A stretch of DNA of 64,000 nt from Variovorax sp. DXTD-1 (GTDB lineage Bacteria > Pseudomonadota > Gammaproteobacteria > Burkholderiales > Burkholderiaceae_C). Under the pieces are notes generated by a model. The model made no database searches. It was not told the origin of the DNA and was given only the letters and a program-made list of their open reading frames with translations. The stretch lies in NCBI RefSeq assembly GCF_003984625.1, contig NZ_RWKH01000001.1:310001-374000 (forward strand), read 5' to 3'. The translations under genes and the position numbers were made by a program. Shown one piece after another: positions 3,359 to 27,881 of this stretch; within the stretch, counting starts at the first letter, position 1; each line of letters begins with the position of its first letter.

Positions 3359-4243
3359 TCAGTCGCGCAGCGCCTGCCGCAACCATTCGACGAAGGTTGC
3401 GCACTCCCAGCGCTCCATCGCCCCCGGCCGCCAGCACAGGAAGTAGGCGTTGGGCGAGGGCACGCTCTCTGCCGAAAGCCGCACGAGGCGCCCGTTCTCC
3501 AGCCAGGCGCTGCCGAGCTTCAGGTGCATCAGCACCACGCCGAAGTCTTCGGCCGCCGCATCGAGCGCCAGGCCCAGGTCGTTGAACTGGTGGCCTGTGG
3601 CCGGCTCCGGCAGGCCGATGCCGCGGGCCTTGAACCAGGTGCGCCACGACTCGAGCGGCGTGCGCAGCAGCTGCACGCGCGAGGCCTCGGCATCCGTCGC
3701 AAAGCCGTCGAATGGCCCGTGGCGCTGCAGGTACGCCGGGCTGCAGGCAGGCGCGACGTCGTCGGCCAGCAATTGGCAGAACTCGCGGTCGTGAAAAGGC
3801 CCGGTGCCGAAGCGCAGTTCCAGGTCGGCCTCTTCGGCCGTCATGTTGCGCACCGGCATGGTCACCTGCAGCATCAGCTCGATGTTCGGATAGGCATCGC
3901 GAAACCGCGCGAGCCGGGGCAGCAGCATCTGGCGGGAGAACGTGGGCGTCACCGCCACCCGCAGCCGCCGCACTTGCGATGCGGGCTCGCGGCCAGGCAC
4001 CTGCTGCAGCGCCGCAATGGCCTCGCGCACGCGGGCCAGGTAGGCCACGCCGTCGGCGCTCAGGCCGAAGTCGTTGCCTGCGAAAAGCTTGAGATCGAGT
4101 AGCGTTTCGAGCTGCCGTATGCGGTGGCTCACCGCGCTGGGCGTCACGCTGAGCTCTTCCGCCGCAAGGTTCACGCTGCGCAGGCGCGCCACGGCCTCGA
4201 AGGCCTGCAGGCCCTGCGTCGAGGGGAGTCGCGTGGAAGCCAT
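3359..4243 (-). CDS. LysR-family transcriptional regulator (GcvA-like)
   Basis: The 294-residue product has an N-terminal winged helix-turn-helix (FEAVARLRSVNLAAEELSVT region, residues about 10-65) and a C-terminal periplasmic-binding-type effector domain. The LPSTQGLQAFEAVARLRS opening is typical of the GcvA/AmpR-like subgroup. I chose the ATG at 4243; the frame stays open upstream but reads into the antisense of the TetR gene. It lies 136 bases upstream of the lldD-like gene in the same orientation and probably controls that locus, which has matching repeat elements in the gap. The inducer is unknown; lactate or a related hydroxy acid would fit the context. Confidence 0.85.
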   Translation of the reverse strand: MASTRLPSTQGLQAFEAVARLRSVNLAAEELSVTPSAVSHRIRQLETLLDLKLFAGNDFGLSADGVAYLARVREAIAALQQVPGREPASQVRRLRVAVTPTFSRQMLLPRLARFRDAYPNIELMLQVTMPVRNMTAEEADLELRFGTGPFHDREFCQLLADDVAPACSPAYLQRHGPFDGFATDAEASRVQLLRTPLESWRTWFKARGIGLPEPATGHQFNDLGLALDAAAEDFGVVLMHLKLGSAWLENGRLVRLSAESVPSPNAYFLCWRPGAMERWECATFVEWLRQALRD

Positions 4244-4269
4244 GTGTGTTGCCGTGTCCGGAGCGGATG

Positions 4270-4872
4270 TTATCGGCTCGCGGCCGAGGCCGGCGCGGCC
4301 ACCAAGGCCTCGAGCAGCCGGCGCAGATCGTCCACGGCTTCGCGCGCCAGGGCCGTGCCGCCCATCTGCGCCTTGACGATGGCGCCGTCCACCCCCAGCG
4401 CGGCAGCCTGCGCGAGCGCGATGCGCGAAGCAGCGCCAGCAGGCAGCAAGCCCGCGATGACCTCGACCATTTCGCGCTTGTGCTCGCGCGCGCGCTCGGC
4501 GGCGCCTTGCACGCTGCCGCCCACCTCGGCCACCGAGTTGATAAATGCGCAGCCCCTGAAGACCGGGTCGGCGAACCATTCGGCCATCACTTCGGGCAGC
4601 AGCAGCAGCGCCCCCGCACCACCGGCGCGTTCGTGTGCGCCGCGCCGGCCGAGCGCATCGACGAACCATGCCATCCACCGCGCATGGCGGTGATCGAGAA
4701 ACTCGCGCACCAGGTCGTCCTTGGACGGAAAGTGCCGGTAGAAGGTGACCTTGGTCACGCCCGATGCCGCAATGACGCGGTCGATGCCCGTGACGCGAAT
4801 GCCATCGGCATAGAAGAGGTCGTGCGCGGCGTGCAGGATGCGCTCGCGCGCGGGCAGTCCGGAGATGTCCAT
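4270..4872 (-). CDS. TetR/AcrR-family transcriptional repressor
   Basis: The 200-residue protein has a TetR helix-turn-helix near residues 10-57 (ARERILHAAHDLFYADGIRV, then TKVTFYRHFPSKDDLV) and a helical ligand-binding C-terminal domain with CAFINSVAE. The start is the ATG at 4872; upstream in-frame codons run through the operator and are not used. It is divergent from a DUF1348 gene, and a perfect 11-base inverted repeat lies 15-38 bases upstream of its own start, so it probably represses itself and the neighbour. The ligand is unknown. Similar TetR proteins commonly respond to reactive electrophiles or small organics, but nothing here proves that. Confidence 0.88.
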   Translation of the reverse strand: MDISGLPARERILHAAHDLFYADGIRVTGIDRVIAASGVTKVTFYRHFPSKDDLVREFLDHRHARWMAWFVDALGRRGAHERAGGAGALLLLPEVMAEWFADPVFRGCAFINSVAEVGGSVQGAAERAREHKREMVEVIAGLLPAGAASRIALAQAAALGVDGAIVKAQMGGTALAREAVDDLRRLLEALVAAPASAASR

Positions 4873-4886
4873 GGCTGTATTGTAGG

Positions 4887-4910
4887 CATGTAGACAGGTC
4901 TGTCTACATG
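4887..4910. promoter_or_regulatory. Perfect inverted repeat, probable TetR operator
   Basis: CATGTAGACAG at 4887-4897 and its exact reverse complement CTGTCTACATG at 4900-4910 are separated by GT. Eleven-base perfect arms in the 97-base gap between a TetR gene and a divergent gene are the expected architecture of a TetR operator. It sits close to the TetR start, where bound protein would block both promoters. Confidence 0.8.
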
Positions 4911-4969
4911 TGGCACATTGCCGACCTTCGACATCTCTTCCTCCCTTTTTCATTCAACGAAAGACCGCC

Positions 4970-5392
4970 ATGGAATCCCGCCCGCCGCTGCCGCCCTTCA
5001 CCCTTGAAACCGCAACCAGGAAAGTGCAGGCCGCCGAAGACGCGTGGAACACGCGCGACCCGGTCCGCGTGAGCCTGGCCTACACGCCCGACACCGAATG
5101 GCGCAACCGCGCCGAATTCGTCAACGGCCGCGAACAGGTGGTGCAATTTCTCACCCGCAAGTGGGAGCGGGAGCACGACTACCGCCTGAAGAAGACGCTT
5201 TGGGCTTTCATGGACAACCGCATTGCCGTGCGCTTCGAGTACGAATGGCACGATGCGGCGGGGCAGTGGTTTCGCAGCCACGGCAACGAGAACTGGGAGT
5301 TCGCAGAGAACGGCCTGATGCAGCGGCGCTACGCGAGCATCAACGACCAGCCCATTCCTGAATCGGAGCGCAAGTTCCGCTGGGAGCGCTGA
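4970..5392 (+). CDS. DUF1348 / NTF2-like (SnoaL-fold) protein
   Basis: The 140-residue product matches the DUF1348 group of NTF2-like proteins: [13 protein letters not shown], then [32 protein letters not shown] and a GNENWEF strand, ending in the RYASIND segment. These are small alpha+beta cones with a pocket; function in the family is not settled. No signal peptide is visible, so it is probably cytosolic. I chose the ATG at 4970 because translation from 4910 would run through the operator. It is divergent from the TetR gene and very likely its main target, which suggests a small-molecule stress or detoxification role (inference). Cyanase follows 59 bases later on the same strand. Confidence 0.82.
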
Positions 5393-5451
5393 GCGTGCCC
5401 CGGCTCCCGGGCACGGGTGTTGCTTGCTAGTGCTGCAAGGAGCAAACCCGC

Positions 5452-5895
5452 ATGAACCGCAACGACGTTACAGAGAAGATCATCACCGTGAAGGTGTCCA
5501 AGGGCATTCAATGGGCCGACGTGGCCAGGAAAGTGGGCCTCTCCAAGGAATGGACCACCGCCGCATGCCTGGGGCAGATGACGCTCGACGACAAGCAGGC
5601 GAAGATCGTCGGCAAGATCTTTGGCCTGACCGTGGAAGAGCAGAAGTGGCTCAAGGTCGTGCCCTACAAGGGTTCGCTGCCTACCCCCGTGCCGACCGAT
5701 CCGCTGATCTACCGCTGGTACGAGGTGGTGAGCGTGTATGGCACCACCATCAAGGAACTGATCCACGAAGAGTTCGGCGACGGCATCATGAGCGCCATCG
5801 ACTTCAGCATGGACATCCAGCGCCAGGCCGATCCGAAGGGCGACCGGGTCAATGTGGTGCTGTCGGGCAAATTCCTGCCCTACAAGACCTACTGA
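5452..5895 (+). CDS. cynS: Cyanate hydratase (cyanase)
   Basis: The 147-residue protein is cyanase, which decomposes cyanate with bicarbonate to ammonia and CO2 in the cytoplasm and forms a decamer. An N-terminal DNA-binding-like helical domain is followed by the dimer/active-site domain. The catalytic triad is intact: Arg88 and Glu91 in LIYRWYEVVSVYG and Ser114 in GIMSAIDFSM, equivalent to Arg96, Glu99 and Ser122 of the E. coli enzyme. AAGGAG precedes the ATG. No carbonic anhydrase (cynT) or CynR gene is adjacent, so it appears as a stand-alone detoxification or nitrogen-scavenging gene. It may be co-transcribed with the DUF1348 gene upstream. Confidence 0.96.
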   Translation: MNRNDVTEKIITVKVSKGIQWADVARKVGLSKEWTTAACLGQMTLDDKQAKIVGKIFGLTVEEQKWLKVVPYKGSLPTPVPTDPLIYRWYEVVSVYGTTIKELIHEEFGDGIMSAIDFSMDIQRQADPKGDRVNVVLSGKFLPYKTY

Positions 5896-19924: not shown

Positions 19925-20350
19925 TCACTCGATCAGCCCGCGCTCCGCGGCCTGCGCCTGGTTCTCGAAAACGGCCATGGCGGTCTTCATGCGCCTGAAG
20001 CCGAACTTTTCGTAGAAGGGCTCCTTGCCGGCCACCGCATACAGAATGATCTTGCGGTGGCCCTTCGAAAGATCCATGAGCCGAGAGACGAGCTGCTTGC
20101 CAAGGCCCGTGCCCTGATGCGTGGGGTGCACCGCCACGTCGCAGATGTAGGAGCAGTCGAGCCCGTCGGCCACTGCACGCCCGGCGCCGACCATGCGGCC
20201 GTTGTCGTACACGAAGCACTTGAACATGCTGTTGGAGAACACGAGCTTCAGCCCGTCGGGCTGCTTGTTGCCGAGCGGTGCGGCCTGGTAGAGCCGCGAG
20301 AGTTCTTCCCAGTCGATGCCTTGGAGCGAATGGCGCCATTCGAGTGTCAT
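19925..20350 (-). CDS. GNAT-family N-acetyltransferase
   Basis: The 141-residue protein is a single GNAT domain. The acetyl-CoA pyrophosphate loop is HPTHQGTGLGKQLV near residues 76-89, matching Q/RxxGxG/A, preceded by the CDVAVHP strand and followed by the FYEKFGF segment typical of motif B. The substrate is unknown; it could be a protein, amine or antibiotic. It starts 28 bases after the mnmH stop on the same strand, so it is likely co-transcribed. Confidence 0.88.
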   Translation of the reverse strand: MTLEWRHSLQGIDWEELSRLYQAAPLGNKQPDGLKLVFSNSMFKCFVYDNGRMVGAGRAVADGLDCSYICDVAVHPTHQGTGLGKQLVSRLMDLSKGHRKIILYAVAGKEPFYEKFGFRRMKTAMAVFENQAQAAERGLIE

Positions 20351-20378: not shown

Positions 20379-21452
20379 TCACCCGGCCGCGTTCAAGCGC
20401 AGGATGGCGTCCGCCACGGCTTCGATGCCTTGGTCCGTCAGGTCGGGTGCCGCCACCTGCTGGCGCAGCGGCCACTTTTCGAAATGGCGCGCCTGCGAGC
20501 GTTCGTAGTGCGGATCGTAGTGAAGTGCCATCAGTTCCGCAAAAAGCTGCGGCAGGTCGCCCGCCATCGCCCACTCCTGCCAGCGCTGCACCACCGCCTT
20601 GCCCTGCATTTCCTTCAGCCTGCCGAGCTGTTCCGCGAGCGCCGCGCGGTCGTCGCCCAGGTAGGCATAGTCGCGCAGCAGGTAGTCGAGCCGCGCGGCC
20701 GCATCCGCCTGAATTTCGATGCATGCGGCGGCGCGCATGTACGCGACCAGCGGAATGGGAACCGAGAGCCGGCCGATGCGGGCGCTCTCACCTTCCACAT
20801 ACAGCGTGCGCGAGAGGTCGAGCGCACCGAAGCAGGTGGCAATGCGGGTTTCGAACTGCTTTTGCGACGGCTGCGGCACGCCGGGCAGGGCGCCCAGCAG
20901 CGAGCCCTTGTGGCTGGCGTAGTGTTCGAGGTCGAGCACCTGTTCGCCGCGCGCGGCCAGCGCCTGCAGCACGCGCGTCTTGGCGCTGCCCGTGGCACCG
21001 CAGATCACCTTGAGCCGCAGCTTGGGCACCGTGGCCTCGATCTGCGCCAGCACATGGTGGCGAAAGCTCTTGTAGCCGCCGGCAAGCTGCTGCGCGTCCC
21101 AGCCGACCAGGCGCAGCCAGGTCACCATCGAACCGCTGCGAAGCCCACCGCGCCAGCAATACACGAGCGGCCGCCAGTTGGCGGGCTGCTCGCTGAAGCG
21201 TTCGCGCAGGTGCCGCGCGAGGTTGGCGGCCACCATGGCGCCGCCCACGCGCCGCGCTTCGAACGCGCCGGTCTGCTTGTAGATGGTGCCGACGATGCGG
21301 CGCTCTTCGTCGTCGAGCACCGGGCAGTTGATGGCGCCGGGAATATGGTCGAGCGCAAACTCGGAGGGCGAGCGCGCGTCGATGACGGTGTCGAACCGGG
21401 GCAGGTCGGCCACGCGCGTGGGCTGGTGGCGCGGGTTGTCTTGGTCACGCAT
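20379..21452 (-). CDS. mnmH: tRNA 2-selenouridine synthase MnmH (SelU/YbbB)
   Basis: The 357-residue enzyme replaces sulfur of 2-thiouridine at the tRNA wobble position with selenium from selenophosphate, by way of a geranylated intermediate. It has an N-terminal rhodanese domain with the active Cys99 in YCWRGGLRSGSM, equivalent to E. coli Cys97. A P-loop domain follows with GATGSAKT at 152-159. Length is normal. The ATG at 21452 overlaps the stop of the upstream phnE by 8 bases, so translation is coupled to the ABC transporter. SelD, which makes the selenium donor, is divergent at the far end of the same cluster. Confidence 0.95.
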   Translation of the reverse strand: MRDQDNPRHQPTRVADLPRFDTVIDARSPSEFALDHIPGAINCPVLDDEERRIVGTIYKQTGAFEARRVGGAMVAANLARHLRERFSEQPANWRPLVYCWRGGLRSGSMVTWLRLVGWDAQQLAGGYKSFRHHVLAQIEATVPKLRLKVICGATGSAKTRVLQALAARGEQVLDLEHYASHKGSLLGALPGVPQPSQKQFETRIATCFGALDLSRTLYVEGESARIGRLSVPIPLVAYMRAAACIEIQADAAARLDYLLRDYAYLGDDRAALAEQLGRLKEMQGKAVVQRWQEWAMAGDLPQLFAELMALHYDPHYERSQARHFEKWPLRQQVAAPDLTDQGIEAVADAILRLNAAG

Positions 21453-22248
21453 GGGCGTGCCCCAGGTTGCGCCGCAGCCGGCCGCTTGCCAGGTCGACAA
21501 GGGCCACCAGGACGAACATTGCAATCAATACGGTCATGGCCTGCTGCTGTTGAAAGATCGACAAGTGAAAGTAGAGAAGCTGGCCCAGGCCGCCGCCGCC
21601 GACAAAACCCAGCACCGCGGCCATCCGGATGTTCATTTCCCAACGATACAGCGCATAGGCCACCCATTGCGGCAGCACGAGCGGAAGGCTGCCGTAGGCA
21701 AAGGCCGCTGCCGCGCCGGTACCACTGAGAACCAGTGCCTGCTCGGGTTCGCGCGGCGCGTTCTCCAGGCTTTCGGCGAACAGGCGGCCCAGCACGCCGG
21801 TGGTATGCAGCGCGAGCGCCAAGGCTCCGGCAAACGGGCCGATGCCCGCGGCCAGCACCATGAGCGCGGCCCACACCAGTTCAGGCACGCTGCGCAGAAA
21901 GTTGAGGACAAAACGGCAGCCCTGCCGCACCAGGAGGCCCGACCTGCCCGAGGCCGGCAATGCCAGCGCGGCGGCTCCCGCGGCGGCCAGCAGCGTGCCC
22001 AGCGCCGAAACGGCCAGCGTCTGAAGCGCGCCCCACGCCGTCTTGGAAAGGAAGGCGCTCGAAAAATCGGGCGGAAAAAACTCGGCGATGAACTTGCCCA
22101 TGAAGCCGATCGATTCCGCCGTGAACAGCGCGCGGTAGTCGATGGCCAGATACGCAAAGCTGGCCACCACGGCCGCCAGAACCAATGCCGATGCCACCCA
22201 GCAGCGGATGCAGCGGGGCGGCCTGGCCAAGTCGACGCGCCCGTTCAT
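21445..22248 (-). CDS. phnE: Phosphonate-type ABC transporter permease (second PhnE)
   Basis: The 267-residue inner-membrane permease has about six hydrophobic segments and the binding-protein-dependent transport loop (about YRWEMNIRMAAVLGFVGGGGLG), which docks the ATPase, plus NFLRSVPELVWAALMV earlier. It is PhnE-like, as is the gene immediately upstream; the two probably form a heterodimeric channel. Its ATG overlaps the upstream phnE stop by 4 bases (ATGA), and its own stop overlaps the mnmH start by 8 bases. Substrate assignment depends on context and may be a selenium oxyanion rather than phosphonate (inference). Confidence 0.9.
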   Translation of the reverse strand: MNGRVDLARPPRCIRCWVASALVLAAVVASFAYLAIDYRALFTAESIGFMGKFIAEFFPPDFSSAFLSKTAWGALQTLAVSALGTLLAAAGAAALALPASGRSGLLVRQGCRFVLNFLRSVPELVWAALMVLAAGIGPFAGALALALHTTGVLGRLFAESLENAPREPEQALVLSGTGAAAAFAYGSLPLVLPQWVAYALYRWEMNIRMAAVLGFVGGGGLGQLLYFHLSIFQQQQAMTVLIAMFVLVALVDLASGRLRRNLGHAHA

Positions 22249-23099
22249 GCGAGCAACCGCCGCAACGCATTGCTCAGCGCATCGGCGAGCAGCACCAGCA
22301 CCAGGAACACCAGCAGGATGCTGCTGGCCTCGCCGCCGTTGAGCATCTTCATCGACTGGTCCATGAGCTGGCCCAGGCCGCCCGCGCCCACGAAGCCCAT
22401 CACCACCGAGGCCCTGACGGCACATTCCCAGCGGTACACCGTGTACGAGATGAGCTCCTGCGCGGAGTTGGGCAACAGGCCGTACACCAGTGCGGCAAAG
22501 CGCCCGCTGCCGCTTTCCAGCAACGCGCGGGCGGGGCGTGTGTCGGTCGATTCGAGCACCTCGGCATACACCTTGCCGAGCATGCCGCCATAGGTGATGG
22601 CCAGCGCCAGCACGCCCGCCGCCGGGCCCAAGCCGAGCGCACGCACGAAGACCAGCGCCCAGACGATCTCGGGCACGGCGCGCAGCACCATCAGCACCGA
22701 GCGCCCGGCTTGCCGCACCATGCCGGCCTTCGCACGGCCCGGGCCGGGGCCGATGCGCGACACCGAAAGCGCGCGCGTGGTCACGAAAGCCAGCGGCGCG
22801 CCGATGACGAATGCCAGCGCCGTGCCCGCCGTGGCCATGGCCAGCGTCTCCAGCGTGGCCTTGCCCAGCATCGCCAGAAAATCCGGTGCGGTTTCGGGCG
22901 GCAGAAAGCCGGCCAGGAAACCGCCTATTACCTGCAGGTTGCCGGGCGCGAACAGGGCCGACGGCGCAAAGCCCGACAGCTGCAGCATCGGCCATGCGAT
23001 GACGAGCGCGGCCAGCAGCCACACGACGCGGCGGCGCGCTAGCGGGTCGCGCAGCGCGGGCGCTGTGCGTGGCGGCGATGGCTGCTGCACGGTGCTCAC
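22245..23099 (-). CDS. phnE: Phosphonate-type ABC transporter permease (first PhnE)
   Basis: The 284-residue permease has about six hydrophobic segments, an ATMAVTGT-like [18 protein letters not shown] region, [13 protein letters not shown] and a docking loop [22 protein letters not shown]. The start is a GTG at 23099 whose bases overlap the phnC stop by 4 (GTGA); the open frame further upstream is a shadow of phnC. The stop overlaps the second phnE start. It is closely related to, but distinct from, its neighbour, as in several phnCDE1E2 operons. Confidence 0.9.
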
Positions 23100-23935
23100 A
23101 GGCAATCCGGGCGTTCGATGGAGTTGACGGCGCTTGAAGCGAAGGGACCCGATGCGATGCCAAGAGGGCGTTCCGGTGCCTGCACCGGCAACCCGCCTTC
23201 GCTTGCATAGAGCGCCGCGAGCATCGATTCGGTCACATTGCCGACTGGCTCGTCGAACACCACTTGCCCACCGCGCATGCCGACGATGCGAGGAAACCAG
23301 CGCAGCGCCAGGTCGACCGCATGCAGCGAGGCCACAAGCGTGGCGCCGGTCGATTCGCTTTGCGCCACCAGCTGCTGCAGCGCGGTATCGGCCAGCGTCG
23401 GGTCGAGCGCGGACACCGGTTCGTCGGCCAGCAGCAGCGCGGGCCGCTGGTAGAGCACGCGCGCAATGCCCACGCGCTGCAGCTGGCCGCCGGAGAGGCG
23501 GTCGCAGCGGTCGAACAGCCGGTCTTCGAGCGAGAGGCGCGCCAGCACCTCGTGCGCGCCCGCAAGATCCGAAGGGCGCAGCAGCGAAGCCAGAGCGCGC
23601 ATCGCGCTCCATTGCCCCAGCCGTCCCGAGAGCACGGCGGTGACCACGCGCAGGCGCGGCGCAATCGGCGGGCTCTGGTGCACGGTGCCGATGCGGGAGC
23701 GCAGCGTGCGCAATGCGGGCGCAGCCAGGCTCCACGGCGATTCACCGAGCAGTTGCACCGTGCCTTCGCCGGGCCGCAGCGCGGCGCCGAGCACGCGCAG
23801 CAGCGTGGTCTTGCCCGCGCCGGAAGGCCCGATGACGGCCACCCGCTCGCCGCTGCGCGCCGCGAGCGACACGCCTTGCAGCGCGCGATGGCCGTTCGGG
23901 TGAACCAGCCCGACCCGGTCGAGCGAGAAACTCAC
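23096..23935 (-). CDS. phnC: Phosphonate-type ABC transporter ATP-binding protein (PhnC)
   Basis: The 279-residue ATPase has Walker [10 protein letters not shown] near residues 36-44, the ABC signature [15 protein letters not shown] near 147-161, Walker [13 protein letters not shown] near 167-178 and a switch His in ASLHAVDLA. It groups with PhnC-like proteins and has an unusual C-terminal extension of about 30 residues (after LPVQAPE) before the phnE overlap. It energises the paired PhnE channel. It lies 31 bases downstream of phnD. Confidence 0.9.
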
Positions 23936-23966
23936 GCGACGGCTCCGCTGGCGCGCCGCAACGACA

Positions 23967-24824
23967 TCACTTGACCAGGCCGGCCGACTTGGCGGCAGCC
24001 TCGATGCCGTCGTAGTTCGACGACTTGGTGGCGACGAACTTGCTCGCGCGCTGCAGGTTCATGATGTCCTTCATGGCGGGATTGGCCGGGTCCAGCTTCA
24101 GGAAGGCCTCGGTGAGCTTCTTCGTCAGCGCCGGGTCGAGGCCGGGGCGCACGGTCCAGTTGTAGTCGTAGTAGGTGGGCGTGGTGGCCAGCACGCGCAC
24201 CTTGGCGGCGTTCGGGTTCTTGCTTTCGACCAGCTTCTCCCACACCGACGCGTTCAGCACGCCAGCTTCGGCGCGCGAGGCGGCCACGAAGGCCACTGTG
24301 GCATCGTGCGCACCGGAAAAAGCCACCGTCTTGAAGTCCTTTTCAGGATCGATGCCCGCTTGCATGAGGAAGTAGCGCGGCATCAGGCTGCCCGAGGTGG
24401 AGGAGGGCGCACCGAACGCGAAGGTCTTGCCCTTCAGGTCGGCCAGCGTCTTGGCGGTGCTTTCGACCGGCACGATGAACTTGCTGGTGAACACCTCGTC
24501 CTCCGCGCGCTGCACGATCGGTACCGCGCCGCCGTTCGTGCGAAGGCGGGCCTGCACGAAGGTGAAGCCGCCGAGCCACGCCAGGTCGATCTTGTTCGTG
24601 GCCAGGCCTTCGACCACCGCGGCGTAGTCGGTCACGGGCGTGAACTGCACCTCCATGCCGGTCTCCTTCTTCAGGTAGTCGCCCAGCGGCGTGAACTTGC
24701 GCTGCAGTTCGGTGGGCGCCTCGTCGGGAATGGCTGAGACGCGCAGCACCTTGCCTTGTGCGAAGGCACCCAGGGCGAAGGCGGACAGCGAGAGTGCAAG
24801 GGCGATGCGAAGGATGGGTTTCAT
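23967..24824 (-). CDS. phnD: PhnD-like oxyanion-binding periplasmic protein
   Basis: The 285-residue solute receptor has a signal peptide ending near AFAQG (residue 23). It belongs to the phosphate/phosphite/phosphonate-binding PhnD family: [29 protein letters not shown] near 64-92 and the anion-binding serine/threonine loop [11 protein letters not shown] (140-150). Proteins of this family bind tetrahedral oxyanions. It heads an operon that runs straight into mnmH and faces selD. No phosphonate-lyase or phosphonatase gene is in the window, so a selenium oxyanion is a plausible ligand (inference); phosphite, phosphonate or phosphate remain possible. Confidence 0.9.
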
Positions 24825-24942
24825 GGCGTGGCGCGGCATGGCGCAAGGAAGAAGGGACAACCTTCGATTGTAGAAACCCGTGTCCGGGCGCCGTTTGCGC
24901 GCGGCTTCGATAATGGGCGACTGCCCTGATACGGATTGCGCC
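24825..24942. promoter_or_regulatory. Divergent promoter region phnD / selD
   Basis: These 118 bases separate the phnD and selD starts and must contain both promoters. GATAAT at 24909-24914, 29 bases upstream of the selD ATG, resembles a -10 box; I see no matching -35 at the normal distance. No long inverted repeat is evident. A shared region would allow selenium supply and use to be co-regulated. Confidence 0.4.
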
Positions 24943-26022
24943 ATGACCGACACGCCGACGATTTCACCCCTCAACCCGCTGGCTCCGCTGCGGCTCACCA
25001 GCTTTTCGCACGGCGGGGGATGCGGCTGCAAGATCGCGCCTGGCGTGCTGTCGGAAATTCTGAAGAACAGCGGCGGCGGCCTCATTCCGCCGGAGCTGAT
25101 GGTAGGCATCGAAACCGCCGACGATGCGGCCGTATACCGACTGAACGACAAGCAGGCGCTGATCGCGACCACCGACTTCTTCATGCCCATCGTGGATGAC
25201 CCGTACGAGTTCGGCCGCATTGCGGCCACCAACGCCATCAGCGACGTCTACGCGATGGGCGGCAAGCCGATCATGGCGCTGGCACTGGTGGCTATGCCGG
25301 TCAACCAGCTGCCGGTGGAAGTCATCGGCGACATCGTGCGCGGCGGGCAGGACGTGTGCCGCGCGGCCGGCATTCCGATTGCGGGGGGCCACACCATCGA
25401 TTCGGTCGAGCCGATCTACGGGCTCGTGGTGATGGGCCTGGTCGACCCGGCCCACGTCAAGCGCAACGCCGAGGCGCGTGCGGGCGACGTGCTGGTGCTG
25501 GGCAAGCCGCTCGGCGTGGGCGTGCTTTCGGCTGCGCTCAAGAAAGAAAAGCTGTCGCTCGCGGGTTACCGGCAGCTCATCGAGAACACCACGCGGCTGA
25601 ACACGCCGGGCATTACGCTGGCGACGATGCCGGGTGTGCATGCGCTCACCGACGTCACGGGCTTCGGGCTGGCCGGCCATGCGCTGGAGCTCGCACGCGG
25701 CGCCAAGCTCACGGCCACCATCGACTGGCCCCGCGTGCCGCTGCTGGACGGCGTGGCCGCCATGGCGGCGGATGGTTTCGTGACCGGTGCCTCCGGCCGC
25801 AACTGGGCCGGCTACGGCGCGGACATCGAGCTTGCGGACGGCCTCCCCGCCGCTGCCCAGGCACTGCTGAGCGACCCGCAGACCTCGGGCGGTCTGCTCG
25901 TGAGCTGCGCTGCCGAGTCGGCCGAAGCGGTGCTGCAGGTCTTTCGCGAGGAAGGCTTCTCGCATGCCGCGGTGGTCGGCCGCATGGAGCAGGGCCCGGC
26001 GCGCCTGCGCGTCTTGGCTTGA
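24943..26022 (+). CDS. selD: Selenide, water dikinase (selenophosphate synthetase)
   Basis: The 359-residue enzyme makes selenophosphate from selenide and ATP in the cytosol. The N-terminal glycine-rich loop GGGCGCKIAPG carries the catalytic Cys27 (Cys17 in E. coli) and Lys30; the active residue is Cys, not selenocysteine. DDAAVYRLND, TTDFFMPIVDDPYEFGRIAATNAISDVYAMGG and the late LLSDPQTSGGLL motif are standard for the family. I chose the ATG at 24943; the frame opens at 24880 without a better start. With mnmH nearby and no selA or selB in the window, its visible purpose is tRNA 2-selenouridine. It is divergent from the phnDCEE-mnmH run. Confidence 0.96.
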   Translation: MTDTPTISPLNPLAPLRLTSFSHGGGCGCKIAPGVLSEILKNSGGGLIPPELMVGIETADDAAVYRLNDKQALIATTDFFMPIVDDPYEFGRIAATNAISDVYAMGGKPIMALALVAMPVNQLPVEVIGDIVRGGQDVCRAAGIPIAGGHTIDSVEPIYGLVVMGLVDPAHVKRNAEARAGDVLVLGKPLGVGVLSAALKKEKLSLAGYRQLIENTTRLNTPGITLATMPGVHALTDVTGFGLAGHALELARGAKLTATIDWPRVPLLDGVAAMAADGFVTGASGRNWAGYGADIELADGLPAAAQALLSDPQTSGGLLVSCAAESAEAVLQVFREEGFSHAAVVGRMEQGPARLRVLA

Positions 26023-27366: not shown

Positions 27367-27881
27367 ATGCAGAACGCGCTTCGCGCCGTACGCGGCGACA
27401 TCAACAAGCTGCAGGTCGATGCCATCGTCAATGCAGCCAATTCATCGCTGCTCGGCGGAGGCGGTGTCGACGGTGCCATCCACCGCGCCGCAGGGCGCGA
27501 GCTTTTGCATGAGTGCCGCCTGCTGTCTGGCTGCAAGACGGGCGACGCCAAGCTGACCAAGGGCTACCGGCCCGGTTCATCATCCACACCGTCGGGCCGG
27601 TCTGGCGCGGGGGCTCGAACGATGAGCCGGAACTGCTTGCATCGTGCTACCGGAAGTCGATGGAAATCGCCGGGCAGCACGGCCTGCGGACCATCGCGTT
27701 TCCGTCGATCAGCACGGGCATCTACGGCTATCCGATCGAACTCGCGGCGCCCATCGCGGTAGCCACGGTCCGGTCGGCGCTGGCCGAAAGCGCCAGCGTT
27801 CAGGAGGCCACGTTCTGCTGCTTCTCGGACGCGGACCTGGCCGTGTACGAGGCGGCGCTTGCGGCAGCGGGGCCTGCCTGA
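27367..27881 (+). pseudogene. Macro-domain ADP-ribose hydrolase (YmdB-like), frameshifted
   Basis: The first part, from the ATG at 27367, reads the macro-domain N terminus: [36 protein letters not shown] with the ADP-ribose-binding NAAN and [10 protein letters not shown] motifs. The rest, from about 27571, reads in another frame: [25 protein letters not shown] and a C-terminal CFSDADLAVYEAAL. The family expects GYRLPARF at the join. Seven bases appear to be missing between CCGG repeats at about 27566-27573; adding seven gives 174 codons, the normal YmdB length. Intact homologues remove ADP-ribose from proteins or hydrolyse O-acetyl-ADP-ribose. Both halves are well preserved, so this is recent decay or an assembly error. 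Confidence 0.85.

Follow-up and report, generated by a model that had tools for sequence, protein, structure and literature searches.

The phnD-phnC-phnE-phnE genes of Variovorax sp. DXTD-1, which lie between selD and mnmH in the 64-kb stretch of contig NZ_RWKH01000001.1 analyzed here (the window), are predicted to encode an ATP-binding cassette (ABC) importer that takes up selenium, likely as selenite, for the selenophosphate synthetase SelD and then for the tRNA 2-selenouridine synthase MnmH. This assignment, which we regard as probable, is well supported by comparative genomics. A preliminary description of the stretch had proposed that the transporter supplies selenium for tRNA selenation, and family co-occurrence, gene linkage, and trees, all of them comparative-genomic evidence, support that proposal. 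The idea itself is already on record: the receptor belongs to the NCBIfam family TIGR04553, named “putative selenate ABC transporter” as a hypothesis (hypoth_equivalog). We also lean toward a wider reading, in which this PhnDCE clade is a dedicated selenite importer derived from phosphite importers and feeding the synthesis of selenouridine, selenocysteine, and selenoneine. The clade would include the core PhnD1 of Prochlorococcus and marine Synechococcus, with its phosphite affinity being a case of selenite mimicry. The selenium name is thus not new. What this analysis adds is the weight of the co-occurrence, the finding of neighbors from several selenium routes set against the phosphite contrast, PhnD1 as a clade member, and selenite as the favored substrate.

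The transporter genes and mnmH are located on the minus strand. The periplasmic receptor gene phnD (23967..24824, 285 amino acids [aa], with an N-terminal signal-like stretch) is followed after 31 nucleotides (nt) by the ABC ATPase gene phnC (23096..23935, 279 aa, GTG start), two permease genes, phnE1 (22245..23099, 284 aa, GTG start) and phnE2 (21445..22248, 267 aa), and mnmH (20379..21452, 357 aa). On the plus strand, selD (24943..26022, 359 aa; selenide, water dikinase) is divergent from phnD, with a gap of 118 bp between the reading frames (24825..24942). The phnC/phnE1 and phnE1/phnE2 frames overlap by 4 nt each and the phnE2/mnmH frames by 8 nt. Because of these overlaps, we read mnmH as belonging to the transporter operon, with a shared transcript suggested for the importer and MnmH. 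A simple scan finds no sigma-70-like site in the 118-bp region, and terminator-like sites in the cassette occur at the rate of shuffled sequence (4 versus 4.1). The preliminary description had given this layout exactly to the base; it also correctly placed a PSSTSG loop at PhnD residues 140 to 145. Its statement that the window has no phosphonate-degradation gene holds as well, and in the whole genome (G000; listed as 100% complete, 92 contigs) the C-P lyase component PhnJ is not found at E ≤ 1e-30.

PhnD is a full-length member of TIGR04553 (366 bits with a cut-off of 250, profile positions 1 to 266 of 266) and scores below the cut-off of the phosphonate-binding PhnD equivalog TIGR03431 (190 versus 261 bits). 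Its nearest homologs by name, among the best 120 of 8000 scored, are from Variovorax and are 87 to 91% identical. The ATPase has PhnC as its best NCBIfam match, under the equivalog cut-off (210 versus 266 bits), matches ABC_tran, and contains the motif LLLADE. The PhnE model TIGR01097 (cut-off, 216.7 bits) is exceeded by PhnE2 (229.9 bits) and narrowly missed by PhnE1 (209.9 bits). In two other loci, the PhnE pair is a single protein with two PhnE stretches (L125:11729-13195, 488 aa; L138:6238-7926, 562 aa). MnmH (NF008752, 511 bits) and SelD (NF002098, 533 bits; TIGR00476, 426 bits) are both over their equivalog cut-offs and carry the motifs YCWRGG and GATGSAKT and the motif GGGCGCK, respectively.

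Co-occurrence was examined in 433 genomes, 239 from Pseudomonadota (240 asked for, completeness at least 90) and 194 from Cyanobacteriota (200 asked for). TIGR04553 is found in 45 of them; selD is present in 44 of these 45 and in 68 of the 388 others, mnmH in 43 and 50, respectively. Among Pseudomonadota, 22 genomes are over the TIGR04553 cut-off, all with at least 326 bits, whereas the next-best score is at most 171. The Fisher tests ignore kinship, and these 22 genomes represent 14 genera in 8 families. They contain selD in 21 cases (versus 56 of the 217 others), mnmH in 20 (versus 45), and SelB in 12 (versus 19). PhnJ is found in just 1 of the 22, versus 48 of the 217, and not in G000, and a link to C-P lyase was rejected on these grounds. 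SenB is encoded in 5 of the 21 selD-positive Pseudomonadota with the transporter and in 3 of the 56 without it (P = 0.03, uncorrected). The two transporter-positive genomes lacking mnmH are G464, which has selD and SelB, and G380. In Cyanobacteriota, 23 genomes are over the cut-off, all with at least 298 bits (the next score is 172); over the respective cut-offs, selD is found in 23/23 versus 12/171 and mnmH in 23/23 versus 5/171, although one of these mnmH matches (G183) contains an in-frame TGA. A set of 50 cyanobacterial genomes reached via PhnD1 loci has mnmH over the cut-off in 42 and as fragments or weak matches in 4 more (G017, G019, G023, and G024). The four with no mnmH match (G002, G020, G027, and G028) are all “AG-” records, presumably single-cell genomes. 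On the question of whether the transporter accompanies selenium or phosphonate genes, which the preliminary description had raised, the family tracks selD and mnmH, not C-P lyase.

The neighboring loci are GC-rich and mechanical calling of open reading frames (ORFs) in them is unreliable, so that only ORFs labeled by tblastn or scanned with profiles were used. Of the 21 Pseudomonadota genomes with both phnD and selD, 8 have the two genes within 1.4 kb of each other, which is more than chance, and a ninth has them at a distance of 8.4 kb. Gene order around them varies by lineage (the window, G421, G297, and G418 all differ), a pattern that favors selection over an inherited arrangement. The selenium genes involved also vary. 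In G313, G376, and G402, which belong to a single genus, the transporter is adjoined by a long SelD ORF and by a gene for SenB, the selenosugar synthase that acts in making selenoneine; in G402, the one of the three that was checked, the SelD ORF is an oxidoreductase-SelD fusion by profile. A single block in G418 comprises a SenA-like gene (379 bits, under the cut-off of 420), selD, phnD-C-E-E, EgtD, and a reversed SenB gene. The G370 transporter is adjoined by a gene for a LysR-type regulator (L136:8679-9545); PMC5322559 predicts a LysR subfamily with a link to selenium.

Plasmid records with a match number 704, and among the 40 of these that were listed, 16 have a receptor annotated as “putative selenate”. 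These 16 loci were read within 8 kb, on the plasmids and not on host chromosomes, from an incomplete gene table. A Sphaerotilus plasmid shows one run of mnmH, ATPase, permease, receptor, and selD, and in 6 of the 16 plasmids, all from Paracoccus, selB-selA-fdhE and formate dehydrogenase genes are divergent from the transporter. Klebsiella accounts for 566 of the 704 matches; the listed Klebsiella plasmids encode a PhnD-like receptor with about 32% identity to that of the window, annotated as being of the phosphate/phosphite/phosphonate type. In 6 of 80 cyanobacterial loci, phnE is followed directly by mnmH on the opposite strand, and in one of these (L088) a GDSL-esterase-like gene comes next, as read by eye. 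In the other 74, mnmH is not seen in the available flank (at least 5 kb of downstream sequence is present for 62 of the 80), and selD is seen in none of the 80. A scan of 10 ORFs near unlinked copies of the transporter revealed one LysR regulator and nothing phosphorus- or selenium-related that stood out. A tesA-mnmH unit was also considered and dropped: its 653-aa query ORF is partly antisense to a GDSL-type gene, again read by eye.

As for the selenium sink in Variovorax, neither SelB (E ≤ 1e-60) nor SenB (E ≤ 1e-40) is found in G000, so selenocysteine and selenoneine were set aside. MnmH is the only SelD-dependent use found in this genome, in which SelA, SenA, tRNA-Sec, and the selenium-cofactor genes of molybdenum hydroxylases were not searched. 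The presence of mnmH in the transporter operon matches this result.

The predicted structure of the window receptor (predicted local distance difference test score, 92) has the PhnD1 structures 5LQ5, 5LQ8, and 7S6G as its top Foldseek folds, and both 7S6G (338 bits) and 5LQ5 (301 bits) pass TIGR04553. PhnD1, encoded in phnD1C1E1, belongs to the same clade and provides its nearest solved folds. The two share the ligand contacts, which are D13, Y46, F90, S126, T127, S128, H158, N176, D205, and Y206 in PhnD1; mapping on 5LQ5 gives a window pocket of D34, Y67, T88, F112, S141 to S144 (with T143), H173, N191, D220, and Y221. Pocket positions were compared, in 5LQ5 numbering, across 47 family rows (23 from 22 Pseudomonadota genomes, 22 cyanobacterial loci, and 2 PDB chains). 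Position 90 is Phe in all 47, versus Tyr in 3 PtxB and 4 PhnD rows, and position 205 is Asp in 38 and Asn in 9, versus Gln in PtxB and Gly or His in PhnD. The window receptor follows the family pattern with F112 and D220. In trees with PtxB and PhnD as outgroups, the family, including 7S6G and 5LQ5, forms one clade, supported at 99/98 (47 rows) or, with plasmids added, at 98/92 (43 rows).

The tree asked for in the preliminary description thus separates the family from characterized PtxB and from E. coli-type PhnD, although the phosphite-binding PhnD1 falls inside the clade. The PtxB phosphite receptors (5O2J, 5LV1, and 5JVB) have the same fold and the same STS and His contacts but form a separate branch with Y90 and Q205; the window receptor has neither that pocket nor a place on that branch. 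Three uncharacterized PtxB relatives in the sample adjoin ptxD. The E. coli phosphonate importer (PhnD, 3P7I) has the same PhnD-PhnC-PhnE make-up and differs in the equivalog score and the C-P lyase context described above. Within the family, G464 encodes two tandem receptors beside selD (L119, contig 6). The second of them and the orphan receptor of G380 (L118), which has no phnC or phnE nearby by tblastn, group together in the tree; both have lost D205 and the capping tyrosine Y206 and perhaps have a new role.

Several observations weigh against the selenium assignment. In 12 of the 21 Pseudomonadota genomes (counting G262 as near), phnD and selD are at least 300 kb apart or on different contigs, and 9 of the 16 plasmids have no annotated selenium gene within 8 kb, according to the incomplete gene table. 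G380 encodes a family receptor, and at the thresholds applied both selD and mnmH are missing. The family is absent from 56 of the 77 selD-positive Pseudomonadota, so the transporter is not required for selenium use. The limits of TIGR04553 could be circular, as the model was named on the selenium idea; however, the range from 172 to 298 bits is empty across all 433 genomes, and with such bimodal scores the position of the cut-off is unimportant. Picocyanobacterial SelD scores are low (127 to 191 bits), inside ORFs of 720 to 813 aa, and an NCBIfam model, fusion_not_SelD, covers similar fusions (the G402 protein scores 474 bits versus a cut-off of 700). Oxidoreductase-SelD fusions are described in PMC2398784 as expected, but not shown, to make selenophosphate. 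Finally, PhnD1 binds phosphite at 0.05 to 4.3 μM and phosphate at 7 to 182 μM (PMC10284923), and the pocket residues F90 and D205 are shared by a Burkholderia vietnamiensis plasmid receptor (L154) that sits beside a phosphite dehydrogenase.

The last two points are the basis for regarding the system as an importer of phosphite or another reduced phosphorus compound, with its nearness to selenium genes being incidental. Phosphite is the ligand that the PhnD1 relatives bind best (PMC10284923). The B. vietnamiensis receptor (221 bits, under the TIGR04553 cut-off) is a long branch just outside the family (96/85), and on plasmid pBVIE02 it precedes ATPase, permease, and phosphonate dehydrogenase genes in one run, with transposase genes around. 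This system may represent a stage between phosphite importers and selenium importers. With F90 and D205 present there, the pocket alone cannot separate selenite from phosphite and was dropped as proof of selenium specificity; the shared residues fit descent of a selenium clade from phosphite importers. Gene context provides a contrast. With the dehydrogenase of L154 (PtxD) as the query, a phosphite dehydrogenase adjoins four of four receptors outside the clade, namely L154 itself and the sub-cut-off receptors L114, L115, and L116 (55 to 80% identity, partial because the loci end). A close PtxD is found in none of 117 family loci (80 cyanobacterial, 20 from Pseudomonadota, 16 from plasmids, and the window), whole genomes not having been searched for ptxD; matches with 28 to 31% identity in L126, L141, and L152 are taken for other dehydrogenases. 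The 64-kb window likewise has no PtxD-like match, the rest of G000 not having been searched. For the family loci, absence is weaker evidence in cyanobacteria because many of their loci end early. Most picocyanobacterial strains cannot use phosphite, and the two Synechococcus strains that were grown do not (PMC10284923). Together with the co-occurrence with selD and mnmH and the linkage to several selenium routes, these data make a phosphite importer unlikely. The tight phosphite binding named in the preliminary description as an argument for phosphorus is indeed seen in the relatives; the accompanying absence of selenium binding is the part that this leaves aside.

PhnD1 differs from the window system in having been studied only as a phosphorus transporter, in a permease encoded by a single gene region, and in the mostly distant location of selD and mnmH in the genome. 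It is encoded in all 97 picocyanobacterial genomes of the database used in PMC10284923, where the transporter is called paradoxical. The authors of that study favor a phosphate transporter, and a constitutive medium-affinity phosphate importer is consistent with the phosphate found in 7S6G and the micromolar phosphate KD given above. However, that affinity is weak, and the system is not induced by phosphorus starvation in the studies cited there (PMC10284923). A phosphate importer would also leave the match with selD and mnmH and the linkage to selA/selB and SenB unexplained, and we consider it very improbable.

At a pH close to 8, hydrogen selenite is a pyramidal ion with a single proton and, like phosphite, three oxygens; selenate closely resembles sulfate. 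Ligands of the PhnD1 pocket must present three oxygens in a trigonal geometry (PMC10284923, PMC5700983), and at pH 8 the ligand in contact with D205 carries one proton (PMC5700983). PhnD1 is reported to bind no hypophosphite, and sulfate was dismissed as the ligand in the 7S6G pocket (PMC10284923). Given the preference of the relatives for three-oxygen phosphite and these findings on sulfate and D205, we favor selenite rather than selenate as the substrate, in contrast to the family name. A selenate importer would agree with that name and with an earlier suggestion for a haloarchaeon, in which a transporter subunit of the phosphate type was considered likely to carry selenate as well (Haft and Self 2008, PMC2276186). 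The preference of the solved relatives for phosphite over four-oxygen phosphate and the dismissal of sulfate (PMC10284923) speak against it, and selenate appears a doubtful alternative. Among the substrates listed in the preliminary description (selenite, selenate, or a selenium analog of phosphonate), selenite therefore fits better than selenate, and the phosphonate analog is not needed. The stem “selen” is absent from the main text of PMC10284923, as are “selenite” and “selenate” from PMC5700983.

In the proposed pathway, PhnD would bind hydrogen selenite in the periplasm via the three-oxygen pocket that binds phosphite in the solved relatives, and PhnC, PhnE1, and PhnE2, judging from their families, would use ATP to bring it into the cell. 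Cellular thiols may then reduce selenite to selenide, as in other bacteria. SelD would convert selenide into selenophosphate, which MnmH would put on tRNA; these activities are established for the enzyme families and are assigned here by membership. In other bacteria, importers of this kind may serve the synthesis of selenoneine and selenocysteine. Phosphite importers are the probable ancestors of the clade, and such an origin would account for the affinity of its members for phosphite.

Open-licence literature yielded no experiment on the selenium function of TIGR04553 and no selenite- or selenate-binding data for its receptors; the matches concerned yeasts, judging by title. The main substrate of the E. 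coli sulfate/thiosulfate transporter, a system different from phnDCEE, is sulfur. It is likewise an ABC importer and is listed as an entry route for selenite and selenate (PMC3781023). Where “selenate ABC transporter” appears in open-licence papers, it is in annotation or proteome lists, one of them guessing selenite export, or denotes the sulfate transporter. YedE was similarly predicted to be a selenium transporter from its gene neighborhood but differs from an ABC importer in being a membrane protein with ten helices (PMC5322559).

Some other genes nearby or related deserve mention. A GNAT acetyltransferase gene (19925-20350, minus strand) begins 28 nt past mnmH on the same strand and may share its transcript; DUF2277 and LysE-type genes come after it. 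A macro-domain gene (27367-27881, plus strand) seems split across two frames by a frameshift or a sequence error: the Pfam Macro match stops early in ORF 27367-27762, and ORF 27513-27881, in another frame, is its apparent continuation by eye. Elsewhere in G000, contig 10 encodes two tandem PhnD-like receptors (3907-5716; L002 and L003) that are outside TIGR04553 (51 and 44 bits); the one scanned against the PhnD equivalog scores 146 bits, under the cut-off.

Two reviews, from 2022 and 2026 (PMC9312934, PMC13188914), state that prokaryotes have no identified high-affinity system for selenium transport. If the reading proposed here is true, the TIGR04553 clade would be an importer of this kind and would supply all SelD-dependent routes met in this analysis. 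It would also resolve the puzzle of a core transporter of abundant marine phototrophs that binds phosphite, a compound that most strains cannot use (PMC10284923). The proposal is directly testable with PhnD1 proteins that have already been purified and crystallized.

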